Shown: positions 4-23,657 of the stretch, piece by piece
How the letters are laid out: every line of letters begins with the position of its first letter
How positions within the stretch are numbered: the first letter of the stretch is position 1
From: Klebsiella aerogenes KCTC 2190
GTDB lineage: Bacteria; Pseudomonadota; Gammaproteobacteria; Enterobacterales; Enterobacteriaceae
Assembly (NCBI RefSeq): GCF_000215745.1
Contig: NC_015663.1
Location: forward strand, 2,914,001-2,978,000
DNA length: 64,000 bases
Direction: 5' to 3'
Notes under the pieces: model-generated
What the model was told of the DNA's origin: nothing
Seen by the model: the letters and a program-made list of their open reading frames with translations, nothing else
Database searches by the model: none
Program-made: the position numbers and the translations under genes

Positions 4-1071
4 TTAGCTGGAGGTGGCGCCGTTCGGCGGGATGGCGGCCAGCTTCTCTTCATGGCGGCGCATCAGGATGACTTTGTTCTGCAGCTTCTGCTGGAACTGG
101 TCGACGACAACGGCGGTGACGATCACCAGGCCCTTAATGACCATCTGCCAGAAGTCGCTAACGCCCATCATCACCATGCCGTCGGCAAGGAAGACGATCA
201 CGAAGGCGCCGATAATCGAGCCGGTCACCCGGCCGCGGCCTCCTGCCAGCGCGGTTCCGCCGAGCACGGTGGCGCCGATGGCGTCCATCTCAAACATGTT
301 GCCGGTCATCGGGTGGGCGGTTTGTAGCTGAGAGGCGACGATCAAGCCGACGAAGGCGGCGCACAGGCCGGAGAAGGCGTAGACGAAAATTTTGGCTTTG
401 ACGATCGGTACGCCGGCGAGGCGAGCGGCGGATTCGTTGCCGCCAATAGCGTAGATGTAGCGACCAAGCGGCGTTTTGGTCGTCAGCCAGTAGCCCAATA
501 CCAGGAAGCCGATCATCAACCAGATCGGCAGATAAACGCCAAGCAGCGTACCGGAGCCCAGCGTGGCGAAACCGGTATTGCCCAGAGCTTCCATGCCGTT
601 GAGGTTCGGGTAGGTGCTGCCGTTGTTAAACAGCAGCGCGGAGCCGCGGGCGACGTACATCATCCCTAAGGTGCAGATAAACGGCGCGACGCCGAAGCGG
701 GTAATCACCGCGCCGTTAACCAGCCCCACCAGCACGCCGAAGACCGCGACGCAAAGGATCACTTCCGGGACGTTAAAGAAGATGATGTCGCCGTTCCATA
801 GCGGTAGCCCGTTGGTCAGCAACGCGCCCGCGACCATCCCGCAGATACCCGCCACCGCGCCGACGGACAGGTCAATGCCGCCGGTGAGGATCACCAGCGT
901 CATACCGATGGCCAACAGGCCGGTAATCGCCACGTGCTGGGTCATGATCAGCAGGTTAGAGGCGGTCAGGAAGTTCGGTACCATCACGCTGAAGAATGCG
1001 ATCACCAGCAGCAGGGCGATGAAGGTTCTGGCCTTCAGCAGGTACATATAAATCATATATTTCTGGTTCAT
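4..1071 (-). CDS. Sugar ABC transporter permease (RbsC/MglC family)
   Basis: Inner-membrane permease of a ribose/galactose-type ABC importer, 355 residues, about the usual family length. It is strongly hydrophobic with roughly eight to ten membrane segments and carries the family signature LVILTGGIDLSVGAV near residue 65 and the cytoplasmic-loop motif AIGGNESAARLAGV near residue 210, where the ATPase couples. It is the last visible gene of the leftward kinase-SBP-lipoprotein-ATPase-permease unit and follows the ATPase stop by 17 bases. Its stop lies three bases from the window edge, so the operon may continue to the left. The substrate cannot be read from the sequence. Confidence 0.9.
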   Translation of the reverse strand: MNQKYMIYMYLLKARTFIALLLVIAFFSVMVPNFLTASNLLIMTQHVAITGLLAIGMTLVILTGGIDLSVGAVAGICGMVAGALLTNGLPLWNGDIIFFNVPEVILCVAVFGVLVGLVNGAVITRFGVAPFICTLGMMYVARGSALLFNNGSTYPNLNGMEALGNTGFATLGSGTLLGVYLPIWLMIGFLVLGYWLTTKTPLGRYIYAIGGNESAARLAGVPIVKAKIFVYAFSGLCAAFVGLIVASQLQTAHPMTGNMFEMDAIGATVLGGTALAGGRGRVTGSIIGAFVIVFLADGMVMMGVSDFWQMVIKGLVIVTAVVVDQFQQKLQNKVILMRRHEEKLAAIPPNGATSS

Positions 1072-1088
1072 GATGGATTCCAGCCTGA

Positions 1089-2633
1089 TTAATCTTGAGG
1101 TGTTGAAGCCGCGATTAACTTTTCGCGGGTCACCGCATGGCGCGGTAAATCGGCGGTAATGCGGCCATCGGCCATCACCAGGATGCGGTCGGCCAGCGCC
1201 ATCACTTCATCCAGCTCCGAAGAGGAGAACATAACCGCCAGCCCCTGCTGGGCCATTTTGCCGATCAGGTGATAGACATCGGTTTTTGCGCCGACGTCGA
1301 TACCGCGCGTCGGTTCGTCAAGGAAGACCACCTGCGGCTGGGTCATCAGCGCCTTACCCAGCACCACTTTTTGTTGATTGCCGCCGCTCAGCGAGGTGAT
1401 GGGCAAATTGGCGTCGCTCACCTTGATAGCCAATTGCTGAATCATCTCTTTTACGCAGGACTCTTCTTTCTGCGGATTCAGCCACCGCCAGGCGCGGCGA
1501 AAACCCTGCAGGCTAAAATCAGAGAGCGTCATGTTGGATTGAATTGACATCATCTGCACCACGCCTTCGCCCTGACGGTCTTCCGGCACCAGCGCCAGGC
1601 CCTTTTTCAGGCGGTGTTGAAAGCGAGATTTGCCGATGCTTTCGCCGTTAAGATGTACCTCGCCGTTCTGGCAGGGCATCAAGCCAACCAGCCCTTTAAA
1701 CAGCTCGGTGCGCCCGGCGCCCAGCAGGCCGTAAATGCCGATCACTTCGCCTTTGCTGAGGGTAAAGGTGACATCATTGAGTTTGTAGCCGCCGCTCGGA
1801 TGCAGCGCGGTCAGCCCCTTAACGTCAAGCACCGCGTTGCCTTTTGGCGCGGGCTGATAATCAAAGTGCTTTTTCTTATCGCCGACCATCTGCTCAATGA
1901 TCCACGGCACGCTGGCGTCGCTGACGTTGCGTTCGCTGATAAAGCGACCGTCGCGGAAAATGGTGATATTGTCGCCAATCTCCATCAGCTCTTCGAGGCG
2001 ATGCGAAATATAGATAATGGTGACGCCGCGGCGCTTAAGCTGCTCGATGACCTTAAACAGCACTTTGACCTCGGACTGGCTCAGCGCCGAGGTGGGTTCA
2101 TCCATAATCAGCACGCGGGTGTCTTTTGATAGCGCACGGGCGATTTCAACCAACTGCTGATGGCCAATCCCCAGTTCGCCCAGCTGCGTGTAGGGATCGA
2201 CGTCGAGCTCCAGCCGCTCCAGTAGCGATTTAGCTAACGCATATTGATATTTCTCGTTGATGCGTCCTTTCTGAAAGAATTCATTAGCCATGAATATGTT
2301 GTCCATCACATTCATATTGGGGAATAAATTCAGTTCCTGGAAAATAATGCTGATGCCGAGTTTCTCTGCCTGATGGGTAGAGTTTAAAGTCACCGCCTCG
2401 CCACCGAGAATAATTTGACCGGAGGAGGGCGTTTCAACGCCGGCAAGCATTTTCATCATGGTGGATTTACCCGCACCATTTTCTCCGATCAGAACGTTAA
2501 CCTTATTTCGATAGACCCGGTAATTCACGTTATCCAGCGCGGTCACGCCGGGATAAATGCGCGAAAGGCCGCGGGTTTCGATAATCACTTCAGATTCGAC
2601 TGGTTGGGGAGCGACGATATCTTGCGGCGTCAT
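1089..2633 (-). CDS. Sugar ABC transporter ATP-binding protein, two-domain (RbsA/MglA family)
   Basis: Tandem ATPase energising the adjacent permease. The first domain has an intact Walker A (GENGAGKST) and Walker B (VLIMDEPTSA). The second has the degenerate P-loop GLLGAGRTEL normal for this family, plus a good signature SLSGGNQQK and Walker B (VVFLDEPTRG). The open frame extends 28 codons further upstream, but I chose the ATG at 2633 because a strong GGAGGT precedes it and the N-terminus then fits the family (514 residues). That ribosome site lies inside the end of the DUF2291 gene, whose stop is one base away, so the two are probably translationally coupled. Confidence 0.92.
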   Translation of the reverse strand: MTPQDIVAPQPVESEVIIETRGLSRIYPGVTALDNVNYRVYRNKVNVLIGENGAGKSTMMKMLAGVETPSSGQIILGGEAVTLNSTHQAEKLGISIIFQELNLFPNMNVMDNIFMANEFFQKGRINEKYQYALAKSLLERLELDVDPYTQLGELGIGHQQLVEIARALSKDTRVLIMDEPTSALSQSEVKVLFKVIEQLKRRGVTIIYISHRLEELMEIGDNITIFRDGRFISERNVSDASVPWIIEQMVGDKKKHFDYQPAPKGNAVLDVKGLTALHPSGGYKLNDVTFTLSKGEVIGIYGLLGAGRTELFKGLVGLMPCQNGEVHLNGESIGKSRFQHRLKKGLALVPEDRQGEGVVQMMSIQSNMTLSDFSLQGFRRAWRWLNPQKEESCVKEMIQQLAIKVSDANLPITSLSGGNQQKVVLGKALMTQPQVVFLDEPTRGIDVGAKTDVYHLIGKMAQQGLAVMFSSSELDEVMALADRILVMADGRITADLPRHAVTREKLIAASTPQD

Positions 2634-2634
2634 A

Positions 2635-3255
2635 TTATTGACCTCCCGGATGAACGATTTTCGCCGGGGTGATTTCCGGAATAGTTTGTGGAATATCCCA
2701 GGCCGAGAAAACGCCATACACTTCTACGTTGTCGCCGGTTTTCAGGTTGGCCGCCTGAATCATCTTGACCGCCTGACTGTTAATATTTTTGCTGTATTCG
2801 CCAAACAGCACCTGGTCGTTAAAGTCCTGGTAGCTGGCGTCGCGGTAACCGTCGCGCAGCAGGGTGCCGCGCAGGGTAGGGCCAATCTGCACCACCACAT
2901 TACCGATGCTGCCATCGGCAAGGGTCATTTTGCCGCTGCGCGAGGCGCTATCCAGCTTGCTGACGGCGCCCACCACCTTAACGTAAAAGATGCACGGGTT
3001 TTCGTCCTGGGCGCGGTAGCCCAGCGCTTTGCAGGCGCTATCGATATCTTTTTGCGCCTTCAGCGCGCTCATTAACTCCGCCGCCGGGCGGGCGTTAGCG
3101 ACCACCTGCGGCACGATGCTCTGCTGCCAGGTTTTATCGATGTTCGCCATATGCGGATTGGGCGGGGATTTCAGGTCTGCCAGCTCCTGCTGCGAGACGA
3201 TGCGGCAGCCGCCAAGCGCCAGAACGGCCAGCGCGAGACAGGTTTTCTTGTACAT
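2635..3255 (-). CDS. DUF2291 family periplasmic lipoprotein
   Basis: About 206 residues, starting at the ATG at 3255, preceded by AGGAGAG; the open frame runs 11 codons further without a better ribosome site. The N-terminus is a lipoprotein signal with lipobox LGGC at residues 14-17, so the mature protein should be lipid-anchored in the periplasm. The rest is soluble and resembles the DUF2291 family, which is typically found beside RbsABC-like importers; its biochemical role is not established. Its place between the binding protein and the ATPase suggests an accessory part in sugar capture or delivery. That role is inference from gene order only. Confidence 0.8.
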   Translation of the reverse strand: MYKKTCLALAVLALGGCRIVSQQELADLKSPPNPHMANIDKTWQQSIVPQVVANARPAAELMSALKAQKDIDSACKALGYRAQDENPCIFYVKVVGAVSKLDSASRSGKMTLADGSIGNVVVQIGPTLRGTLLRDGYRDASYQDFNDQVLFGEYSKNINSQAVKMIQAANLKTGDNVEVYGVFSAWDIPQTIPEITPAKIVHPGGQ

Positions 3256-3298
3256 AATGCTCTCCTCTGCGCCCCCGCAGGGGCGCAACCACCCGAAC

Positions 3299-4234
3299 TC
3301 AGGACTTGATGTTGAAGTCCTGAACTTTATCTGCGTTATCCTGGGTAATCAGAATGCCGCGGAACATCACGCGCTGCTTCGCCGGCTTCTCGCCTTTTTG
3401 CAGGTAGTTATCCAGATCGGTAACGCCCTGGGCGGCGATGGCCTGCGCCTGGAGCATCACGGTCGCCTGTAGCGTACCGGCCTTCACCGCATCGCGTTCG
3501 TCGTTGCTACCGTCGATACCGACGACGATCACATCGTTACGATTGGCCGCTTTTAGCGCCGCGATGGCGCCAAGGGCCACCGGGCCGTTACCGCAGATCA
3601 CCCCTTTGACATCCGGGTGAGCCTGGAGAATGCTATCCATTATGCGTTTGCCGTCGATCAGGGTGCCTTTGGCATCCTGTTTTGCCACGCTGACCATATC
3701 CGGGTACTGGTCAATCACCTGGTGGAAGGATTTAGAACGGGTGACGCAGTTATTATCGGCGAGGTTGCAGGTCAGTTCGGCGTATTTGCCTTTTTCCGCC
3801 ATTTTCTCAACAAATACGTTGGCGACTTCTGAACCTGCCTGGAAGTTATTATGGGTAATTTGTTCCAGCGCAACATCATCAACCGGAATTTCACGGTTAA
3901 TTAATACCACCGGAATGCCCGCTTTTTTGGCTTTTTCAATGGCGGCGACGCTGGCGGTGGAGTCGGCGTTATCGAGAATAATCCCCTGCACCTTTTTACC
4001 AATGGCGGTATCAATCAGCTCATTTTGCTTTTTGACATCTTCGCCATGCGAGAGCACGGTCGTTTTATAGCCGAGGGCTTGCGCTTTTTCGCTGGCGCCT
4101 TTGGCTTCCGAGGCGTAATAAGGATTATCCAGCGAGTTAACCATTATCATAATGGTGCCTTTTTCGGCGCTATGCGCGGCAAAGGAAAAGGCAGTCAGGG
4201 TCGCAGCGGTTAAAAGAGTTAAACGTAATTTCAT
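3299..4234 (-). CDS. Periplasmic sugar-binding protein of ABC importer (RbsB-like)
   Basis: A 311-residue periplasmic binding protein with a Sec signal peptide (cleavage probably after AAHSA, near residue 23). It has the type I fold pattern of ribose-like proteins: MVNSLDNPYYASEAKGA at the start of the mature protein, the middle segment PVVLINREIP, and VVGIDGSNDERDAVKAG in the second lobe, where the Asp contacts sugar hydroxyls in RbsB. Two cysteines near residue 155 (LTCNLADNNC) may form a disulphide. It is separated by 170 bases from the kinase gene upstream and may also have its own promoter. The ligand is unknown; a pentose or ketose is likely from the neighbours. Confidence 0.9.
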   Translation of the reverse strand: MKLRLTLLTAATLTAFSFAAHSAEKGTIMIMVNSLDNPYYASEAKGASEKAQALGYKTTVLSHGEDVKKQNELIDTAIGKKVQGIILDNADSTASVAAIEKAKKAGIPVVLINREIPVDDVALEQITHNNFQAGSEVANVFVEKMAEKGKYAELTCNLADNNCVTRSKSFHQVIDQYPDMVSVAKQDAKGTLIDGKRIMDSILQAHPDVKGVICGNGPVALGAIAALKAANRNDVIVVGIDGSNDERDAVKAGTLQATVMLQAQAIAAQGVTDLDNYLQKGEKPAKQRVMFRGILITQDNADKVQDFNIKS

Positions 4235-4404
4235 GACTCTGTTCCTATATTTTTATATTCGAACAAATGAGCCCCTGAGCGGGCAGGATTTTACGGTCTG
4301 AAATTTCCCCAGAATAAATTCGGGGGTGCGATACATCGTTATGGGCCGGGGTTCTCCTGTAGTGGGTTAATAAGGTTCGTCGCTCAATCTGACGCCGATG
4401 GGCA

Positions 4405-5925
4405 TCAGGCTGGCGAATCCGGTTTCCATAATGTTCTGTTTACCGCATGGCGCCACTCCCGCCAGCGCTGCTGTAGTCGCTGGTGGCGGGCCATGTCGGG
4501 TTGAAAAGCGCTGTGTTCGGTTAAAAAGGCTTGCAGGTCGGCGGTTTCACCCGGAGTGAGGGCTTTGCGGGCGAGTAGCGCCGCGCCGATGGCGGACAAC
4601 TCCGGGATATCGCTGCGCATCACCGGGCAGCCGAGCAGGTCGGCCTGATATTGCATCAGCCAGTCGTTGTTGGTTGGGCCGCCGTCGACCATTAACGCCG
4701 TCAGGGTGAATTCAGCGTGCTGGCGCATCGCCGCCACCACGTCGGCAATTTGATAGGTAATGGATTCCAGCGCCGCGCGGATCAGGTGTGCGCGCTTGAC
4801 GCCGCGGCTGAGGCCGCAGATCACCCCGCGGGCGCTGTCATCCCACCAGGGGGCGCCGAGCCCGGTCAGCGCCGGCACGAAGTAGACCCCTAAGGTCGAA
4901 TCGACGGAGGCGGGCAGGGTATTCAGCTCGTGGGCCAAATCGGCTGCTGAGAGTTCGCTCAGCCCGGTGCTGTCAGCCATCCATGCTACCGCATCGCCGG
5001 TATGAGGAATGTTGCCTTCCAGTCCCCACACCAGCTGGTCGCCATCGTGCCAGGCGACGGTGGTCGCCAGGGCGGCAATATCGCACTGGGCCGATTTTAC
5101 CGGCGCCATCACCGAGGAGCCTGTGCCGTAAGTGGCTTTCACACAGCCAGCTTCGCCAAGCGCGTGGCCGAAGAGCGCGGCGTGGGAGTCGCCAATCATC
5201 GCCATCACCGGAATACCGTCGGGGATCGCCGCCAGCCCTTTGGTGTAGCCGAACAGACCACTCGACGGTTTAATCTCCGGCAGCGCCGCGCGCGGAATAC
5301 CAAACAGCGTCAGCATCTCGTCATCCCACTCGCCGCGGTGCAGATTCAGCAATTGGGTGCGGGCGGCGTTGGAATAATCGCAGAAGAAGGATTGTCCGCC
5401 GGTTAAATTCCACAGCAGCCAGCTGTCGATAGTGCCGAGGCAAATCTCGCCGCGTGCGGCAAGCTGATAGCCATCGGGAGTGGCGTCCAGCAGCCAGCGC
5501 ATTTTGGAGGCGGAAAACAGCGGCGCAATCGGCAGGCCCGTGGCGTGTTTAATGCGCTGCTCCTGACGATCGCGACGCAGCGTGTCGCAGAACGCGGCGC
5601 TGCGGGTGCACTGCCAGGTGATGGCGGCGTTAATGGGTTCGCCGCTGGCGCGATACCAGCCGATGGCGGTTTCGCGTTGATTGCTGATAGCCAGCGCCGC
5701 AACGTTTTCCGCGCCGACGTGAGCCACCGCTTTGGCGATCACCGCCAGCGAGGCCGCCATCAGCGCCTCGCCGGATTGTTCCACCCAACCTTCGCGCGGG
5801 GTTTGGATCGCCAGAGGCTGCGAGAACTTGACGCTAACCTTGCCTTTGCTGTCCAGCACCACGGCTTTCGCGTTGGTGGTGCCTTCATCCAGCGCAATGA
5901 TGAACTCTTTGGCTGTCGCCTGCAT
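4405..5925 (-). CDS. FGGY-family carbohydrate kinase, glycerol-kinase-like
   Basis: 506 residues from the ATG at 5925, which has GAGGAGAG in front; the frame is open 21 codons further but without a ribosome site. The phosphate-binding motif DEGTTNAK (13-20), NQRET (82-86), ITWQCTRS (102-109), GDSHAALFG (245-253, with the probable catalytic base D246) and GGPTNNDW (415-422) place it in the FGGY family close to glycerol kinases. The Asp-Gln pair of GlpK is Asp-Ser here and the tyrosine of its glycerol pocket is not kept, so glycerol is probably not the substrate. It presumably phosphorylates the imported sugar to feed the divergent split transketolase. Ketopentulose or apulose are candidates, but not shown. 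Confidence 0.88.
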   Translation of the reverse strand: MQATAKEFIIALDEGTTNAKAVVLDSKGKVSVKFSQPLAIQTPREGWVEQSGEALMAASLAVIAKAVAHVGAENVAALAISNQRETAIGWYRASGEPINAAITWQCTRSAAFCDTLRRDRQEQRIKHATGLPIAPLFSASKMRWLLDATPDGYQLAARGEICLGTIDSWLLWNLTGGQSFFCDYSNAARTQLLNLHRGEWDDEMLTLFGIPRAALPEIKPSSGLFGYTKGLAAIPDGIPVMAMIGDSHAALFGHALGEAGCVKATYGTGSSVMAPVKSAQCDIAALATTVAWHDGDQLVWGLEGNIPHTGDAVAWMADSTGLSELSAADLAHELNTLPASVDSTLGVYFVPALTGLGAPWWDDSARGVICGLSRGVKRAHLIRAALESITYQIADVVAAMRQHAEFTLTALMVDGGPTNNDWLMQYQADLLGCPVMRSDIPELSAIGAALLARKALTPGETADLQAFLTEHSAFQPDMARHQRLQQRWREWRHAVNRTLWKPDSPA

Positions 5926-6273
5926 ATGATGCTCTCCTCGGTCACCCATTGTCCTGGAACGGCGGAAACAGACATGGTCTCCGGCCATTGCATGCGTCTA
6001 TGCAGGCCATGATGTGACATATCGTTATCGCTTTTTAATCACTGAATATATATTCGATAGTGATTATTTATTTGATACCTTAAGCCACAAACCCAGTGAT
6101 GGGCTACCTGAAAAATCATCAATTGTGCTGGCAATCACATTTCACAGATTGGGAATATGACACGAAGGCGGGGAGGATGGTTGTTTAATGTATTGAATTA
6201 TAATGAGTTATTTTGAAATCCCTGTTGCTGAAAAACAGCCTCAGGGATTGACGAGGCATAAAACTGCGGAGGA
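5926..6273 (-). promoter_or_regulatory. Control region of the kinase/transporter operon: palindromic operator and CRP-like site
   Basis: This 348-base gap between the regulator stop and the kinase start holds no gene. At 6044-6055 is the palindrome GAATATATATTC, matching a longer copy in front of the transketolase operon (7413-7428), so it is the best candidate operator for the adjacent SorC-type regulator. About 80 bases further upstream (6124-6139) is TGTGC-N6-TCACA, nine of ten positions of the CRP half-sites. The arrangement, an activator site upstream of a repressor site near the probable start, fits a catabolite-controlled inducible sugar operon. Sites were read by eye and are not tested. 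Confidence 0.6.
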
Positions 6274-7224
6274 TTAGTCGCTAACCAGTAATCTGGCGGT
6301 AGGGTAATCGGTGATTAAAACATCGATATAGCCGCCGGTAAGCGCGCCTTTAATTGCCGCGACTTTGTCGGTGCCGCCGGCCAGCGCGACCACGTTCGGG
6401 CATTTTTTGACTTTCTCCAGCGCCATGCCGATCACCGGATCTTCATCTTCGCGTAACACCGGCTGGCCATATTTGTCGTAGTAGTGCAGGCAGATATCGC
6501 CAACCGCGCCGCGCGCCGCCAGCACCTGCAGCATATCTTCGTGATAATAGTTACCCGACGTTTTCAGCAACTGGGAAGGTTCGAGAATTCCAATGCCGAC
6601 AATGGCGATATCGACCTCGTCAAAGCGTGAAACCACGTCGGCGACATCTTTGCTGGCCAGCAGGCGATTGCGCTCTTCCATGGAGCCTTCGATGCTCTGC
6701 GACGGCAGCAGCCAGGCATCGCAGTTAAGACGCTGGGCCAGCGTCTGGGTGAGGATCGTCGCCTGCACGTTGCCGTTGGGCCCGACACCGCCAAGCAGTT
6801 GGATGACGCCGCTGGCCTTCAGGTTTTGCGCGTGGACCTCATCAACCATCGCGCGGATGGTCGAACTCCATGAAGAGACGCCAATCAGATCTTTTGGCCG
6901 CAGGCGGGTTTCCAGGTAGTGCGCGGCGGCGGAGCCAATCGCCCGCTTGATGGTATGGTCGCTGGCCTCTTCTTCGGTATCGACCACCACCGCCTGTTTA
7001 AGCCCGTAGCGATCCTCAAGCCCCTTTTCGAGATTGAGAAAGATATTCGATGGCTGCACGACGCTGATTTTGACGACGCCCTCTTTTTGGCAGCGGGTAA
7101 TCGCACGAGAGACAAATGACTGAGACAGCGAGAGAAGTTGGGCGATATCAGACTGCTTTCGTCCTTCCAGATAGTAAAGCGTGGCAATCTTCACCAATAG
7201 CCGTTGTTCATCCTGCTTAGCCAT
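6274..7224 (-). CDS. SorC-family sugar-binding transcriptional regulator
   Basis: 316 residues. An N-terminal helix-turn-helix (about residues 18-50, GRKQSDIAQLLSLSQSFVSRAI) is followed by the phosphosugar-binding effector domain of SorC/DeoR-type regulators (GVSSWSSTIRAMVDEV near 115, VGIGILEPSQLLKTSGNYYHEDM, and VVALAGGTDKVAAIKGAL near the C-terminus). Such proteins usually bind a phosphorylated sugar and leave or re-arrange on their operator. It lies between the two operons it probably controls and is transcribed with the kinase direction. The most likely inducer is the kinase product; whether it represses or activates cannot be told from the sequence. Confidence 0.88.
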   Translation of the reverse strand: MAKQDEQRLLVKIATLYYLEGRKQSDIAQLLSLSQSFVSRAITRCQKEGVVKISVVQPSNIFLNLEKGLEDRYGLKQAVVVDTEEEASDHTIKRAIGSAAAHYLETRLRPKDLIGVSSWSSTIRAMVDEVHAQNLKASGVIQLLGGVGPNGNVQATILTQTLAQRLNCDAWLLPSQSIEGSMEERNRLLASKDVADVVSRFDEVDIAIVGIGILEPSQLLKTSGNYYHEDMLQVLAARGAVGDICLHYYDKYGQPVLREDEDPVIGMALEKVKKCPNVVALAGGTDKVAAIKGALTGGYIDVLITDYPTARLLVSD

Positions 7225-7596
7225 ATTTATCCTCGAAAATCATTTATCGCCTTTCTTCAGGCGTTTAGCTGCAGCCATTATCGTAGTGACTTCTATCATA
7301 CGCGAAAAAAAATCACACTTAAGTGTGATGGTGGTCAAATTTTTACCACTCATCAAAATCGACTATGGACAAAAACAAAACAGCCAGGCCATAATCGAAT
7401 AAAGAATCATCATTGAATATATATTCAAGATGGCTTTGAGTCAACGAGTTTATCCGGGCTTGCCTGGAGCGGGAGGCAGAATGTTCCTGAGTACGGCGCA
7501 GTGGTGTAAGGCTAACCACCGACATGGGGATATCTGGTTTTTTTAGTTCCTGTTGGAATAAATATTCCATATTGAAAATAAATTCAGAGGTATTAA
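7225..7596 (+). promoter_or_regulatory. Divergent control region between regulator and split transketolase
   Basis: This 372-base gap has no gene. It contains the perfect 16-base palindrome TTGAATATATATTCAA at 7413-7428, identical in its 12-base core to the site at 6044-6055. Two looser relatives lie near the transketolase start: GGAATAAATATTCC at 7555-7568 and TGAAAATAAATTCA at 7573-7586, the last touching the ribosome site. A separate perfect 18-base palindrome, ATCACACTTAAGTGTGAT, is at 7312-7329. A CRP-like site TGTGA-N6-TCAAA overlaps its right arm (7324-7339). Together they suggest joint control of both transcription units. Confidence 0.6.
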
Positions 7597-8427
7597 ATGA
7601 ATCCCTACAGATTTGATATCCAGACGCTTGAGCGCAAAGCGCGCGCCGTGCGCCGCCACATTGTCCGCTTAAACGCCAATAGTCCGGCTGGCGGTCACAC
7701 CGGGGCTGACCTGTCGCAGGTCGAATTGTTAACCGCGCTCTATTTCCGCGTACTCAATGCGGCGCCCGATCGTCTTGACGACCCGCAGCGCGATATCTAT
7801 ATCCAGTCGAAAGGCCATGCGGTGGGCTGCTACTACTGCGTACTGGCGGAAGCCGGTTTCTTCCCGAACGATTGGCTGGAGACCTACCAGCACGCGAACT
7901 CGCACCTTCCCGGTCATCCGGTGCGGCAGAAAACGCCGGGCATTGAGCTTAACACCGGCGCGCTGGGCCACGGTTTGCCTGTTGCGGTGGGGCTGGCGCT
8001 GGCCGCAAAGAAAAGCAACAGCCCCCGCCGCATCTTTTTAATCACCGGCGACGGCGAACTGGCAGAAGGCAGTAACTGGGAGGCGGCGCTGGCGGCGGCC
8101 CATTATGGCCTCGATAACCTGGTCATTATTAATGATAAGAACAATCTTCAGCTGGCCGGGCCAACCCGTGAAATTATGAATACCGATCCGCTGGCCGATA
8201 AATGGCGCGCCTTCGGCATGGAGGTCAGCGAATGCGACGGCAACGATATGGCTTCGGTGGTCGCGGCTATCGAAGGGCTGCAGCAGAACGGTAAACCTAA
8301 CGTCATTATTGCCAACACCACGAAGGGCGCGGGCATCTCCTTTATCCAGGGGCGCCCGGAGTGGCACCACCGGGTGCCGAAAGGCGAGGAAATCGCACTG
8401 GCGCTGGAGGAACTGAAAGATGAGTAA
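7597..8427 (+). CDS. Split transketolase, N-terminal (TPP-binding) subunit
   Basis: 276 residues, corresponding to the first half of a transketolase. It has the substrate/TPP histidines (GGHTG near 29, SKGHAVGCYY near 70), GALGHGLPVAVGLA, and the thiamin-diphosphate motif GDGELAEGSNWEAALAAAHY with the trailing NDKN. The next gene starts eight bases before this one stops, so the two halves are coupled and should assemble as alpha2-beta2. Split transketolases of this size are known from several sugar pathways, including the apulose-4-phosphate transketolase AptA/AptB. The probable role is moving a two-carbon unit from the phosphorylated sugar made by the neighbouring kinase; the exact donor is not known. 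Confidence 0.9.
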   Translation: MNPYRFDIQTLERKARAVRRHIVRLNANSPAGGHTGADLSQVELLTALYFRVLNAAPDRLDDPQRDIYIQSKGHAVGCYYCVLAEAGFFPNDWLETYQHANSHLPGHPVRQKTPGIELNTGALGHGLPVAVGLALAAKKSNSPRRIFLITGDGELAEGSNWEAALAAAHYGLDNLVIINDKNNLQLAGPTREIMNTDPLADKWRAFGMEVSECDGNDMASVVAAIEGLQQNGKPNVIIANTTKGAGISFIQGRPEWHHRVPKGEEIALALEELKDE

Positions 8428-9361
8428 TGCAGAACACCTGGCGAACGTGATGGTCGAGGCGTTTATCGCCGCGGTGGAAAAGGGCGTCGATCTGGTGCCG
8501 GTGGTCGCGGACTCCACCTCAACGGCCAAGATCGCTCCCTTTATTAAGCAGTTCCCCGGACGGCTGGTTAACGTCGGTATCGCCGAGCAGAGCATGGTCG
8601 GCACCGCCGCGGGGCTGGCGCTCGGCGGTAAAGTGGCGGTGACCTGTAACGCCGCGCCGTTCCTTGTCTCCCGCGCTAACGAGCAGATTAAAGTCGATGT
8701 CTGCTACAACAACACCAACGTCAAGCTCTTTGGCCTTAACGCCGGGGCCAGCTATGGCCCATTGGCCAGTACCCACCATGCTATTGACGACCTGGCGGTA
8801 ATGCGCGGTTTCGGCAATATCCAGATTTTCGCCCCCTCCACGCCGCGCGAATGTCGGCAGATTATCGACTACGCCCTGGCGTATCAGGGGCCGGTTTATA
8901 TCCGCCTTGACGGCAAGGCGCTGCCGGAGTTGCATGACGAAGCGTACCGTTTTGTGCCCGGCGCGGTGCTGACCCTGCGCGAAGGCGCTGCGGTGGCGCT
9001 GGTGGCGACCGGTTCAACCGTGCACGAAGTGGTGGAGGCGGCGCAGCAGCTTGCCGACCTTGGTATTGAGGCGAAAGTGGTCAGCGTGCCGTCGATTCGT
9101 CCCTGTGATACCGCGGCGCTGCTGGCGGCGCTGCGGTCATGCCGTTCAGTTATTACCGTCGAAGAGCATAACGTCAACGGCGGTCTGGGGAGCCTGGTCG
9201 CCGAAGTGCTGGCGGAAGCGGGCGCGGGGATTGCCTTGCAGCGTCTGGGGATCCCGGATGGCGAGTATGCGGCGGCCGCCGATCGCGGATGGCTGCGTCA
9301 ACATCACGGTTTTGACGCAGCGTCGATTGTCGCGCGGGTACAGAAAATAGCGCAGGGTTGA
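8420..9361 (+). CDS. Split transketolase, C-terminal (pyrimidine-binding) subunit
   Basis: 313 residues, the second half of the split enzyme. The conserved segment GRLVNVGIAEQSMVGTAAGLAL near residue 50 carries the glutamate that activates the TPP aminopyrimidine ring. Further on are the substrate-pocket stretch GASYGPLASTHHAIDDLAVMRG and the C-terminal domain with TVEEHNVNGGLGSLVAEVLAEAG. It overlaps the N-terminal subunit gene by eight bases and is followed at once by a hairpin facing the other way that ends fepA transcription. It has no counterpart here outside the sugar locus, which suggests a dedicated pathway enzyme rather than the housekeeping TktA/TktB. Confidence 0.9.
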   Translation: MSNAEHLANVMVEAFIAAVEKGVDLVPVVADSTSTAKIAPFIKQFPGRLVNVGIAEQSMVGTAAGLALGGKVAVTCNAAPFLVSRANEQIKVDVCYNNTNVKLFGLNAGASYGPLASTHHAIDDLAVMRGFGNIQIFAPSTPRECRQIIDYALAYQGPVYIRLDGKALPELHDEAYRFVPGAVLTLREGAAVALVATGSTVHEVVEAAQQLADLGIEAKVVSVPSIRPCDTAALLAALRSCRSVITVEEHNVNGGLGSLVAEVLAEAGAGIALQRLGIPDGEYAAAADRGWLRQHHGFDAASIVARVQKIAQG

Positions 9362-9390
9362 AAAAACGCCCTCCCGGGGGGGAGGGCGTC
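9362..9390 (-). terminator. Rho-independent terminator of fepA
   Basis: On the minus strand a perfect CGCCCTCCC/GGGAGGGCG hairpin is followed by six T residues, directly after the fepA stop. The plus strand lacks a T-tract, so it primarily ends fepA, though the stem may also slow transcripts from the convergent transketolase genes. Confidence 0.85.
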
Positions 9391-9404
9391 AGACACTAAT
9401 ATTA

Positions 9405-21524: not shown

Positions 21525-23657
21525 TTAGTACGCGCCGAGATCTTTCCAGACGTCGAACTGGCCGCAGTACAGGTCAGGCTGTTTGCCCTGAGACCACCAT
21601 TTCACCTGATAGTTGTGGCCTTTCCAACTCACGGTTTCAAAGGTACCCCAGTTGCCGCCATAAACGGTTTTGGCATCCCACAGCGGGTAAGGCGTGGCGT
21701 CGTCAGATGGTACCACGTCATCATCCTGCGCAGGCGTGGTGTCATCAGTCTCTTTTTCTTCGTCAGCAGGTTCATCTGCCGGCTCATCGGCTGGCTTGTC
21801 ATCACTCTGACCGTCCCCGGAAGCCACGACAACGGAGAGGATAAAGCGCTGCTGGGTTGACGGTTCGCCCCAGGTATCGCGAACGAACAGCGTGAAAGTG
21901 AACTCGGTATCCGCGGTGACTTCCGGTACATCGAACTCAATAACCGCGGCGGTTTTATCCGCAACATCAATGGCTGCCGGCACGCCCCAGCTGTAGCTCA
22001 GCTCGTCGCTATCTTCATCAGACGATTTTTCCCCGGACAGGCGTACGCGGGAGCCGCCTACGACCATCATTTCAATTGCCGCTTCCGGCGCATGGTTTAC
22101 CGTCGGTTCAGTTGGCTCATCTTCTGACTTATCGTCTTCTTGTTCATCAGCAGGCACAACGTTAATGCCTTCGAAATAGAACGGGTCCATATCGATAACT
22201 TCAGAGGCGATTTCGTAGCCCAGACCTTCACGGGCGGCGTTAACCAGCACGCCGTTATCATGGTCGATAGTCCAGGTAAACAGACCGCCCAGCCCCAGGC
22301 TGGCAGCGTATTCCCCTTTGGCTTTGACGGTGCGCGGGGTATCCAGCGACATAAACAGTTTGGATTCAGGATTGTAGAGGAAATCAGCGTCAGCCACCTG
22401 GTCGGTATAAACGTTAAAGCCGTTACGCCCTTTCTGGTTTTCCAGATCCAGGTAGTTATAAATGACGTCATACCATTCGTTGGTACCGGATTCAAAGGTA
22501 CCGACGGTGGTGCCGTTACCCGGGTTATAGGTGCCTTTCAGCGGAGACAGCGATTCCAGCTCGGCGTTGCGGCCGTTACGGGTATAGCCGGCGTAACCGA
22601 TGTTGATGCGCTCAGCCGGGAAACCTTCCGCCAGCAGATGTTCAACGATGGTGTTAATCGCCCAGCCGCCTTGCTCAATGGCTTTCAGATTGGTGTGGTG
22701 GGTGATGCTTTCCGCCCACGGGGTGCCGAAGAAGTCATAGGTCATGACGTTGATGCCGTACAGACCGGCATTCATCAGCGCTTTGACGTTGGAATAATCA
22801 AAGGTCTTCACCACGGCGGAGCTGGCGATAGAGATTTTGACATCGCTCAGGCCGGCAGAATCCAGCTGCTTACGCAGTTCGGCAATAAGTAACGCATAGT
22901 TTTCACCATCTTCCGGGCCGTAGGGGTTGCCGGCGCCTTCGGCGTTCGGGTATTCCCAGTCGATATCCACTTCGCTGAACATCGGGAACTGTTTGAACAG
23001 CTTCACCACGCCTTTAGCGAAGATTTTACGCGAGGAATCAGATGCCGCGGTTTCATGAAAACCGTTGCTCATGCTCCAGCCGCCGATGCTCATGGACAGC
23101 ACCAGGTTGTGGCCCTGTTGTTTGGCTTTCGCTTGCAGGTCGCGCAGACCGCCGAGCAGGCCTTTGGTGTTTGTCTGGGTTACGGTTTTCGGATCGACAT
23201 CCCAGCCGCTGACGCTGTGGCCAACGTTAACGTAAGACTGGAAGTCGCCCCACGGGTCGAGGAAGGTCGGTTCATATTTGACTTTGCCGCACTGCTCAGC
23301 CCCTTCGGCTACCACATCGCGATACAGACCATCCACTTTATGGAAGCCGGTTACGCCGACGAAGCCAACGATGATTTTATCGTAAGCGGTAGGGGAGACG
23401 TTGGTCAGGTCGTAGCCGCGTCCGCGGTTATCTTTCGCATCGCTGCCCTGCAGGCGGCCATCGTACTGAGACCAGTCGGTGTAGTAACCGAAGACCTTTG
23501 GTTTGTTGGTCGCGCTTTTGTATTTGTTATAGACCGGTTTAGCGACGCGGTCTGACGTATAGCTGTAGTTGCTGACTTCAGTTGCCGGGTTAAAACCATC
23601 TGCCGCATTGCTGGTTTCGGTCAGGGTATCGCCCTTGATCAATTTGCTAGTGGTCAC
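21525..23657 (-). CDS. Modular GH18 chitinase with C-terminal chitin-binding domain
   Basis: 710 residues from a GTG start with AAGGAAC in front. The GH18 catalytic domain is about residues 54-485: VFGYYTDW, the SxGG motif MSIGGWSMS (189-197), DIDWEYP with catalytic E235 (231-237), and MTYDFFG (305-311). Then comes a PKD/Ig-like module (about 521-612), an acidic Asp/Glu/Pro linker (about 614-655) and a CBM5/12 ending (YPLWDAKTVYGGNW, WWSQG). No ordinary Sec signal is visible, so export may use a non-Sec route, as reported for some Serratia chitinases. It interrupts the E. coli-type entS-fepB neighbourhood and no Fur box is seen nearby, so its link to iron is doubtful. Confidence 0.93.
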   Translation of the reverse strand: MTTSKLIKGDTLTETSNAADGFNPATEVSNYSYTSDRVAKPVYNKYKSATNKPKVFGYYTDWSQYDGRLQGSDAKDNRGRGYDLTNVSPTAYDKIIVGFVGVTGFHKVDGLYRDVVAEGAEQCGKVKYEPTFLDPWGDFQSYVNVGHSVSGWDVDPKTVTQTNTKGLLGGLRDLQAKAKQQGHNLVLSMSIGGWSMSNGFHETAASDSSRKIFAKGVVKLFKQFPMFSEVDIDWEYPNAEGAGNPYGPEDGENYALLIAELRKQLDSAGLSDVKISIASSAVVKTFDYSNVKALMNAGLYGINVMTYDFFGTPWAESITHHTNLKAIEQGGWAINTIVEHLLAEGFPAERINIGYAGYTRNGRNAELESLSPLKGTYNPGNGTTVGTFESGTNEWYDVIYNYLDLENQKGRNGFNVYTDQVADADFLYNPESKLFMSLDTPRTVKAKGEYAASLGLGGLFTWTIDHDNGVLVNAAREGLGYEIASEVIDMDPFYFEGINVVPADEQEDDKSEDEPTEPTVNHAPEAAIEMMVVGGSRVRLSGEKSSDEDSDELSYSWGVPAAIDVADKTAAVIEFDVPEVTADTEFTFTLFVRDTWGEPSTQQRFILSVVVASGDGQSDDKPADEPADEPADEEKETDDTTPAQDDDVVPSDDATPYPLWDAKTVYGGNWGTFETVSWKGHNYQVKWWSQGKQPDLYCGQFDVWKDLGAY

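Follow-up and report, generated by a model that had tools for sequence, protein, structure and literature searches.

Two short-chain dehydrogenases as candidate replacement for an isomerase in an AplK-AptAB-type locus of Klebsiella aerogenes

In this work, we analyzed a gene cluster for sugar uptake, phosphorylation and a two-gene transketolase that starts at the left edge of a 64,000-nucleotide stretch of the Klebsiella aerogenes KCTC 2190 genome (contig NC_015663.1, positions 2,914,001 to 2,978,000; the whole stretch is referred to as the window). We read this locus as a form of the AplK-AptAB regulon in which apulose is probably reached via apiitol by two short-chain dehydrogenases/reductases, SDR1 and SDR2, that take the place of an isomerase, and we put the probability of this reading at roughly 60%. 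Apiose is a branched plant cell-wall sugar that is used by gut and plant bacteria. Its degradation by the D-apiose isomerase ApsI, the kinase AplK and the transketolase AptAB was reportedly described by Carter et al. in 2018 and is said to be entered in MetaCyc as PWY-8089. The K. aerogenes locus is thus of a known kind with real, partly published variation; the pathway is known in outline. The hypothesis that the isomerase is replaced has already been published (PMC13001218), and what is new here are three alternative front ends of the pathway, a ligand pocket of the binding protein that tracks the front end and an operator that all of them share.

All eight genes of the locus that lie inside the window are intact open reading frames (ORFs) according to an ORF check, and a Pfam search gave a strong match for each of them (BPD_transp_2, ABC_tran, DUF2291, Peripla_BP_4, FGGY_N/FGGY_C, Sugar-bind of the SorC type, Transketolase_N, and Transket_pyr with Transketolase_C). 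The minus-strand operon runs from the kinase through the binding protein, the DUF2291 lipoprotein, the ATPase and the permease of an ATP-binding cassette (ABC) importer to SDR1 and SDR2, while aptA and aptB form a divergent plus-strand operon (Table 1). The original prediction, which had been made from the window alone, named genes that all proved real but counted seven of them instead of eight; its ATPase ORF is likewise real, with the earlier start at 2717 now replaced by a likelier one. It had further described the locus as self-contained, which does not hold because two SDR genes on the same strand come straight after the permease. The permease, noted earlier to end at base 4, is complete, and the operon does run on leftward, where genes had been suspected to be missing. 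This extension holds the two dehydrogenases and no isomerase gene, in agreement with the earlier remark that the locus lacks an isomerase. This set of genes is found again in Klebsiella, Raoultella, Citrobacter, Cedecea and Escherichia coli, so its clustering is not due to chance. The importer differs from the ribose importer RbsACB in that its proteins score under the respective NCBIfam cut-offs (146 against 337 for RbsB, 508.5 against 745 for RbsA and 272.3 against 398 for the ribose permease); the permease scores under every NCBIfam equivalog cut-off displayed.

The apiose/apulose route had been proposed earlier from the resemblance of the gene set, and the sequence comparisons bear this lead out. 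AptA and AptB are 80 and 72% identical, respectively, to those of two Pectobacterium species (L044, L046) and 79-80 and 75-78% identical to those of three isomerase-type clusters (L012, L013, L016); AptB is 100% identical to that of a K. aerogenes record. The kinase is 72-74% identical to kinases of clusters with a fucose isomerase (FucI)-like protein but only 44% identical to the Pectobacterium kinase, and in nine loci of the FucI type the kinase is nearer to that of the window than to that of Pectobacterium. Its AplK-type status was judged against such cluster kinases. The glycerol-kinase-like character of the enzyme had been held against apulose as substrate. This doubt loses its force, since the closely similar kinases sit in isomerase-type clusters and apulose has a glycerol-like end. 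The kinase shares the FGGY fold with glycerol kinase GlpK and its best solved matches are glycerol kinases, but it stays under the NCBIfam cut-offs (499.4 versus 590.35 bits and 493.0 versus 498).

A sister cluster is present in E. coli, with 77% DNA identity over 91% of a 5-kb query (window positions 4400-9400). This query matched 628 of 5426 complete E. coli genomes, and 546 matches covered at least 80% of it. The annotated E. coli locus has the same ten genes in the same order, adjoins entD and fepA, and encodes two SDRs that are 89-94% identical to the K. aerogenes proteins. In contrast to the original prediction, the locus cannot be called uncharacterized: a paper from 2026 already describes the sister cluster as the D-apiose degradation cluster of E. 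coli STc131 and STc14, which also occurs in E. fergusonii, and takes Pectobacterium as the reference genus of the published pathway (PMC13001218). Carrier strains of E. coli grow on 10 mM D-apiose and K-12 does not, evidence that comes from comparing strains rather than from a deletion; apsI is lacking from the cluster, two oxidoreductases are hypothesized as its replacement, and the route from apiose to apulose without isomerase is stated to be open (PMC13001218). Apiitol does not occur in the searched text of that paper, and among the matches listed in our literature search on apiose catabolism, apiitol and apiose reductase (EC 1.1.1.114) no paper assigned these genes. The SDR form is the form of the pathway in Klebsiella and E. 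coli ST131. One difference concerns entD: in E. coli (L010) and K. pneumoniae (L015) this gene separates aptB from fepA, but it is absent from the corresponding window positions 9362-9404; a tblastn search with K. pneumoniae EntD gave no match in the 64-kb window or in the extended K. aerogenes locus (L009), and the E. coli locus, used as positive control, matched.

To place the locus among its relatives, species genomes were scanned with an AptB alignment, the best 80 of 575 relatives were analyzed, and front ends were classed by protein identity. Among these 80 loci the kinase/AptAB core was found with three front ends, namely an ApsI-type isomerase, a FucI-like protein or a pair of SDRs. 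The ApsI type (PF01261) occurred in two loci of Pectobacterium, and the FucI-like protein (PF02952) together with a Pectobacterium-type binding protein in 24. SDR1 and SDR2 were present in 22 loci, nine with the window-type binding protein and 13, mostly from Pseudomonas, with a third importer, for which the best solved matches in the Pseudomonas clusters are ribose-binding proteins. SDR1 was combined with an SDR of the GolD/DthD type in ten loci, nine of them with the window-type binding protein. In one locus, from Vibrio salinus (L055; L042 is on the same contig), an SDR-type cluster with the third importer type and an isomerase-type cluster are adjacent, each with its own AptAB. Of the remaining 21 loci, four had a FucI-like gene without Pectobacterium-type binding protein, one had GolD only, and 16 showed no front end within the flanks analyzed. 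The FucI-like gene of Yersinia (L043) fills the exact slot of the PF01261-type isomerase in Pectobacterium (L044), an apparent case of non-orthologous displacement, and the isomerase of Rahnella (L012) is likewise FucI-like where the Pectobacterium loci show the PF01261 type. Clusters from Rouxiella, Erwinia, Pantoea and Dickeya (L088-L092, L095) encode binding proteins 76-91% and SDR1 proteins 84-90% identical to those of K. aerogenes, with AptB at only 43-46%; the importer and SDR1 evidently move together there, with AptAB and the second SDR being exchanged.

The different front ends share an operator. The window contains three copies of the palindrome GAATAWATATTC, against 0.01 matches expected, and the rest of the 5.28-Mb K. 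aerogenes genome contains none (a control pattern gave one forward and two reverse matches). This palindrome is kept in ten aligned SDR-type loci, and 56 of the 76 loci that could be assessed have it no more than 400 bases away from aptA; the other four of the 80 have no assessable region upstream of aptA. Eighteen of the 20 loci without the palindrome have an AptA of at most 57% identity and no visible SorC; the other two are L026 and L077. The K. aerogenes locus thus has the SorC regulator and the operator GAATAWATATTC of the apulose (AplK-AptAB) regulon. The palindrome is common to all three front ends. Its presence ahead of isomerase-type operons too places these and the SDR clusters in one kind of regulon: a kinase/transketolase core behind one operator, with entry enzymes and importer swapped as modules. 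The SorC protein would repress both divergent operons at this site; repression and an inducer are what we infer. Upstream of the kinase operon (6124-6139) we also observed TGTGCTGGCAATCACA, of which TGTGC and ATCACA are largely kept in ten aligned loci; it resembles a CRP site.

We searched the whole K. aerogenes genome for the two known isomerase types. A FucI-like query gave no match at E<=0.01, and the Pectobacterium ApsI query gave a single 25% partial match (E 2.4e-6). The same queries matched in 21 and 5, respectively, of 198 genomes of the family. A close AptB (71-100% identity) was present in 36 of these 198; 11 of the 36 had SDR2 only, 21 an isomerase only, four both and none neither (Fisher p 2.3e-6, which is overstated because related genomes are treated as independent). 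Eight further genomes had an AptB at 45-47% identity and, at the thresholds used, neither SDR2 nor either isomerase. SDR2 without AptB was seen in one genome (G130), and a FucI-like gene without AptB in one that is 49% complete (G028).

These data bear on an alternative that we regard as improbable, in which an unlinked enzyme of another family isomerizes D-apiose for the same kinase and transketolase, with the SDRs acting in a side reaction or on a second substrate. Some genomes speak for it. Two with SDR-cluster content (G105, G106) hold a lone gene of the ApsI type that lies outside the cluster and follows the shared operator at a distance of about 190 and 90 bases, respectively (L100, L101); G106 is probably the same metagenome-assembled genome as L026, and its lone gene is weaker evidence. 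In two others of one genus (G076, G197) the sole AptB lies in the SDR cluster, and a second module elsewhere comprises a Pectobacterium-type importer, SorC and a FucI-like isomerase without kinase and transketolase (L102, L103, L111), such that two import modules appear to feed one kinase and transketolase. Moreover, non-homologous isomerases of the host escape the queries used. On the other hand, K. aerogenes has neither known isomerase type and no GAATAWATATTC site beyond the cluster, and SDR1 accompanies SDR2 or GolD in 18 of 19 loci with the window type of binding protein; the 19th locus is truncated by the end of its contig.

The pathway that we propose via apiitol would begin with import of D-apiose, D-apiitol or both by the CUT2-type ABC importer. 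SDR1 would reduce apiose at C1 to apiitol (or run in reverse), and SDR2 would oxidize apiitol at C2 to apulose, which is two redox steps away from apiose and one from apiitol. AplK would phosphorylate the glycerol-like end of apulose. With glyceraldehyde 3-phosphate as acceptor of the two-carbon ketol unit, AptAB would then form xylulose 5-phosphate and dihydroxyacetone phosphate. Apulose is HOCH2-CO-C(OH)(CH2OH)2 with a glycerol-like C(OH)(CH2OH)2 end; this structure would explain both a glycerol-kinase-like kinase and a transketolase, with dihydroxyacetone phosphate being released. In all, the K. aerogenes locus shares AptA, AptB, the FGGY kinase, the CUT2 importer with DUF2291 protein, SorC and the operator with the ApsI-AplK-AptAB pathway, but differs in having two SDRs instead of an ApsI-type isomerase and a binding protein that is 45% identical to that of Pectobacterium, with another pocket.

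The catalytic S-Y-K pattern of SDRs was present in 36 of 37 SDR1 and 25 of 25 SDR2 proteins. The cofactor motif of SDR1 resembles that for nicotinamide adenine dinucleotide phosphate (NADP), with an arginine in 34 of the 36 motifs that could be read (the two exceptions represent one V. salinus gene in two overlapping loci), whereas SDR2 has the aspartate after strand beta-2 that is typical for nicotinamide adenine dinucleotide (NAD), in 25 of 25 proteins by eye and 23 of 25 by script. These motifs suggest that SDR1 reduces and SDR2 oxidizes. The nearest solved relatives of SDR1 are mostly ketoacyl and acetoin reductases; among those of SDR2, a member of PRK06114 (511.1 versus a cut-off of 360), are galactitol dehydrogenase and a putative polyol dehydrogenase. 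Neal and Kindel reportedly described in 1970 an NAD-specific apiose 1-reductase (EC 1.1.1.114) from Aerobacter aerogenes, an old name of K. aerogenes, and no gene is known to have been assigned to this enzyme. Its reaction is needed by the locus, and SDR1 or SDR2 is a candidate for this orphan activity. The locus thus offers two candidate genes for the step from apiose to apulose and for the enzyme activity of 1970. The NADH-linked interconversion of apiose and apiitol is a listed reaction, KEGG R03577 (PMC1686944). We consider it highly improbable that the SDRs instead oxidize apiose to apionate or act on a phosphorylated product. One paper mentions oxidative D-apiose routes in which RuBisCO-like proteins take part (PMC6302742), but among the cluster genes seen there is neither a lactonase nor a RuBisCO-like protein nor any other gene of an acid route, and the kinase and transketolase would have no ketose to act on.

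The nearest solved relative of the binding protein by sequence is Rhizobium etli RHE_PF00037 (49% identity to 5ibq, 48% to 4ry0). 5IBQ represents its complex with apiose. Fourteen ligand positions of E. coli RbsB were mapped through K. aerogenes RbsB. They read PNFFDDRSRWNFDQ in 5ibq and in all 36 isomerase-type binding proteins counted, but NNYYDNRHRGNIDL in K. aerogenes and the other SDR-type binding proteins (22 of 22, spanning Klebsiella to Caballeronia with 61-64% identity overall). RbsB, only 32% identical to 5ibq, matches it at 11 of the 14 positions. Over 275 gap-free columns, 36 are fixed yet different between the two types, and the 14 pocket positions account for eight of these (hypergeometric p 6.9e-5). 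A divergent binding protein with 44% identity (L079) has a third pattern, SNWFNDRSRFNFDQ, and was left out of the counts together with L011, from the same species and with many split frames; the cut locus L024 is outside the 22. The SDR-type pocket came with an SDR pair, SDR1 with SDR2 or GolD, in 18 of 18 complete loci, and the other pocket with an isomerase in 26 of 26 single-cluster loci that have a front end (Fisher p 9.7e-13, a value overstated by treating related genomes as independent). The two adjacent clusters of L055 were excluded from this comparison and from the tree mentioned below.

The SDR-type pocket has lost Trp164, Phe214 and Gln235 and gained Asn, Tyr and His, which would fit a ligand without a flat ring face, for example a polyol, or a larger ligand. 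Within the proposed route via apiitol, it is possible, and we suggest it tentatively, that the locus is a dedicated D-apiitol pathway, in which the importer would bind the non-cyclic polyol, SDR2 or GolD would form apulose and SDR1 would be the missing EC 1.1.1.114 that feeds in D-apiose; isomerase-type clusters would then serve apiose and SDR-type clusters apiitol, converging on one kinase and transketolase. A sharp prediction on the ligand of the importer follows from the locus. Apiitol as the sole ligand is weakened by G105 and G106, since these genomes combine ApsI with an SDR-type binding protein alone; a second, apiose-type binding protein was looked for in both and none was found.

Alternatively, the substrate may lie outside the apiose family. 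Oxidation of a polyol such as erythritol, threitol or 2-C-methylerythritol would then yield a ketose of four carbons, which the glycerol-kinase-like enzyme would phosphorylate and the transketolase would cleave. We judge this unlikely, though the pocket that is unlike that of the apiose-binding relative speaks for it. So do enzymes of the GolD/DthD family of polyol dehydrogenases, likewise SDRs, which fill the SDR2 slot in nine of the 18 complete loci whose binding protein is of the window type. DthD acts on threitol. One such enzyme scored 315.8 bits against the subfamily cut-off of 286, whereas SDR2 of K. aerogenes stays below it at 211.4. A polyol is also suggested by a single case among the loci examined (G016, L105), where the genes for SDR2 and SDR1 flank a major facilitator superfamily transporter that belongs to the RbtT/DalT/CsbX family (506 bits, cut-off 375); other members of this family are encoded elsewhere in the genome in five of 16 SDR2 genomes, G016 included. 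Against such a substrate, isomerase-type clusters have a closely similar kinase and AptAB, with the kinases of the nine FucI-type loci nearer to that of the window than to the Pectobacterium one, a single AptB serves both import modules in G076 and G197, and strains with the sister cluster are reported to grow on D-apiose where K-12 does not (PMC13001218).

Several observations weigh against the proposed replacement of an isomerase by two SDRs acting via apiitol. The pocket of the binding protein is not of the apiose/ribose type, differing at eight of 14 positions from 5ibq and the 36 isomerase-type proteins, and D-apiose may not be the ligand. On the AptB tree there are four changes of front end and two of pocket, and two of two independent pairs agree (sign test p 0.5); with so few independent changes, common descent explains much of the association between pocket and front end. 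Of the 15 genomes that have both SDR2 and a close AptB, four also carry an isomerase, which weakens the view that the SDRs are a plain isomerase substitute in every genome. Finally, the cofactor motif of SDR1 is NADP-like, while the reductase of 1970 was reportedly NAD-specific.

Table 1. Coordinates of the locus features (window positions unless stated otherwise)
Feature	Position	Strand	Remarks
ABC importer permease, CUT2 type	4..1071	-	PF02653; complete (1071 down to 4)
ABC importer ATPase, 514 residues	1089..2633	-	PF00005, two copies; likely start 2633 gives E. coli annotated length
DUF2291 lipoprotein, 206 residues	2635..3255	-	PF10054, 140.7 bits; N-terminus MYKKTCLALAVLALGGC; likely start 3255 gives E. 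coli annotated length
Substrate-binding protein, 311 residues	3299..4234	-	SDR-type ligand pocket
AplK-like FGGY kinase (predicted apulose kinase), 506 residues	4405..5925	-	PF00370/PF02782; likely start 5925 gives E. coli annotated length
Operator copy GAATATATATTC	6044..6055		Upstream of kinase-importer-SDR operon
SorC-type regulator, 316 residues	6274..7224	-	PF04198, 205.6 bits; between the two operons
Operator copy GAATATATATTC	7415..7426		Between sorC and aptA
Operator copy GAATAAATATTC	7556..7567	+	30 bases ahead of aptA start
AptA-like transketolase N-terminal (thiamine pyrophosphate-binding) subunit	7597..8427	+	PF00456
AptB-like transketolase C-terminal subunit	8420..9361	+	PF02779/PF02780
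SDR1	L009 9144-9941 (contig 2913144-2913941)	Same as permease	Left of window, directly past permease, same operon
SDR2	L009 8270-9073 (contig 2912270-2913073)	Same as permease	Left of window, after SDR1, same operon

A scan for promoters and terminators was no better than shuffled sequences (two promoters versus a mean of 2.3, two terminators versus 1.5). To the left of the SDR genes (L009 5924-7962), a DUF1852 gene is accompanied by a methionine-synthase-like gene, possibly as the MesX/MesD pair of a folate-independent methionine synthase; unrelated genes follow. An ORF of 710 codons occupies window positions 21525-23657; the corresponding K. aerogenes record carries a chitinase annotation between entS and fepB. 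In the record of K. aerogenes NCTC10006 (L011), many genes of the region are annotated in pieces, which looks like sequencing error.

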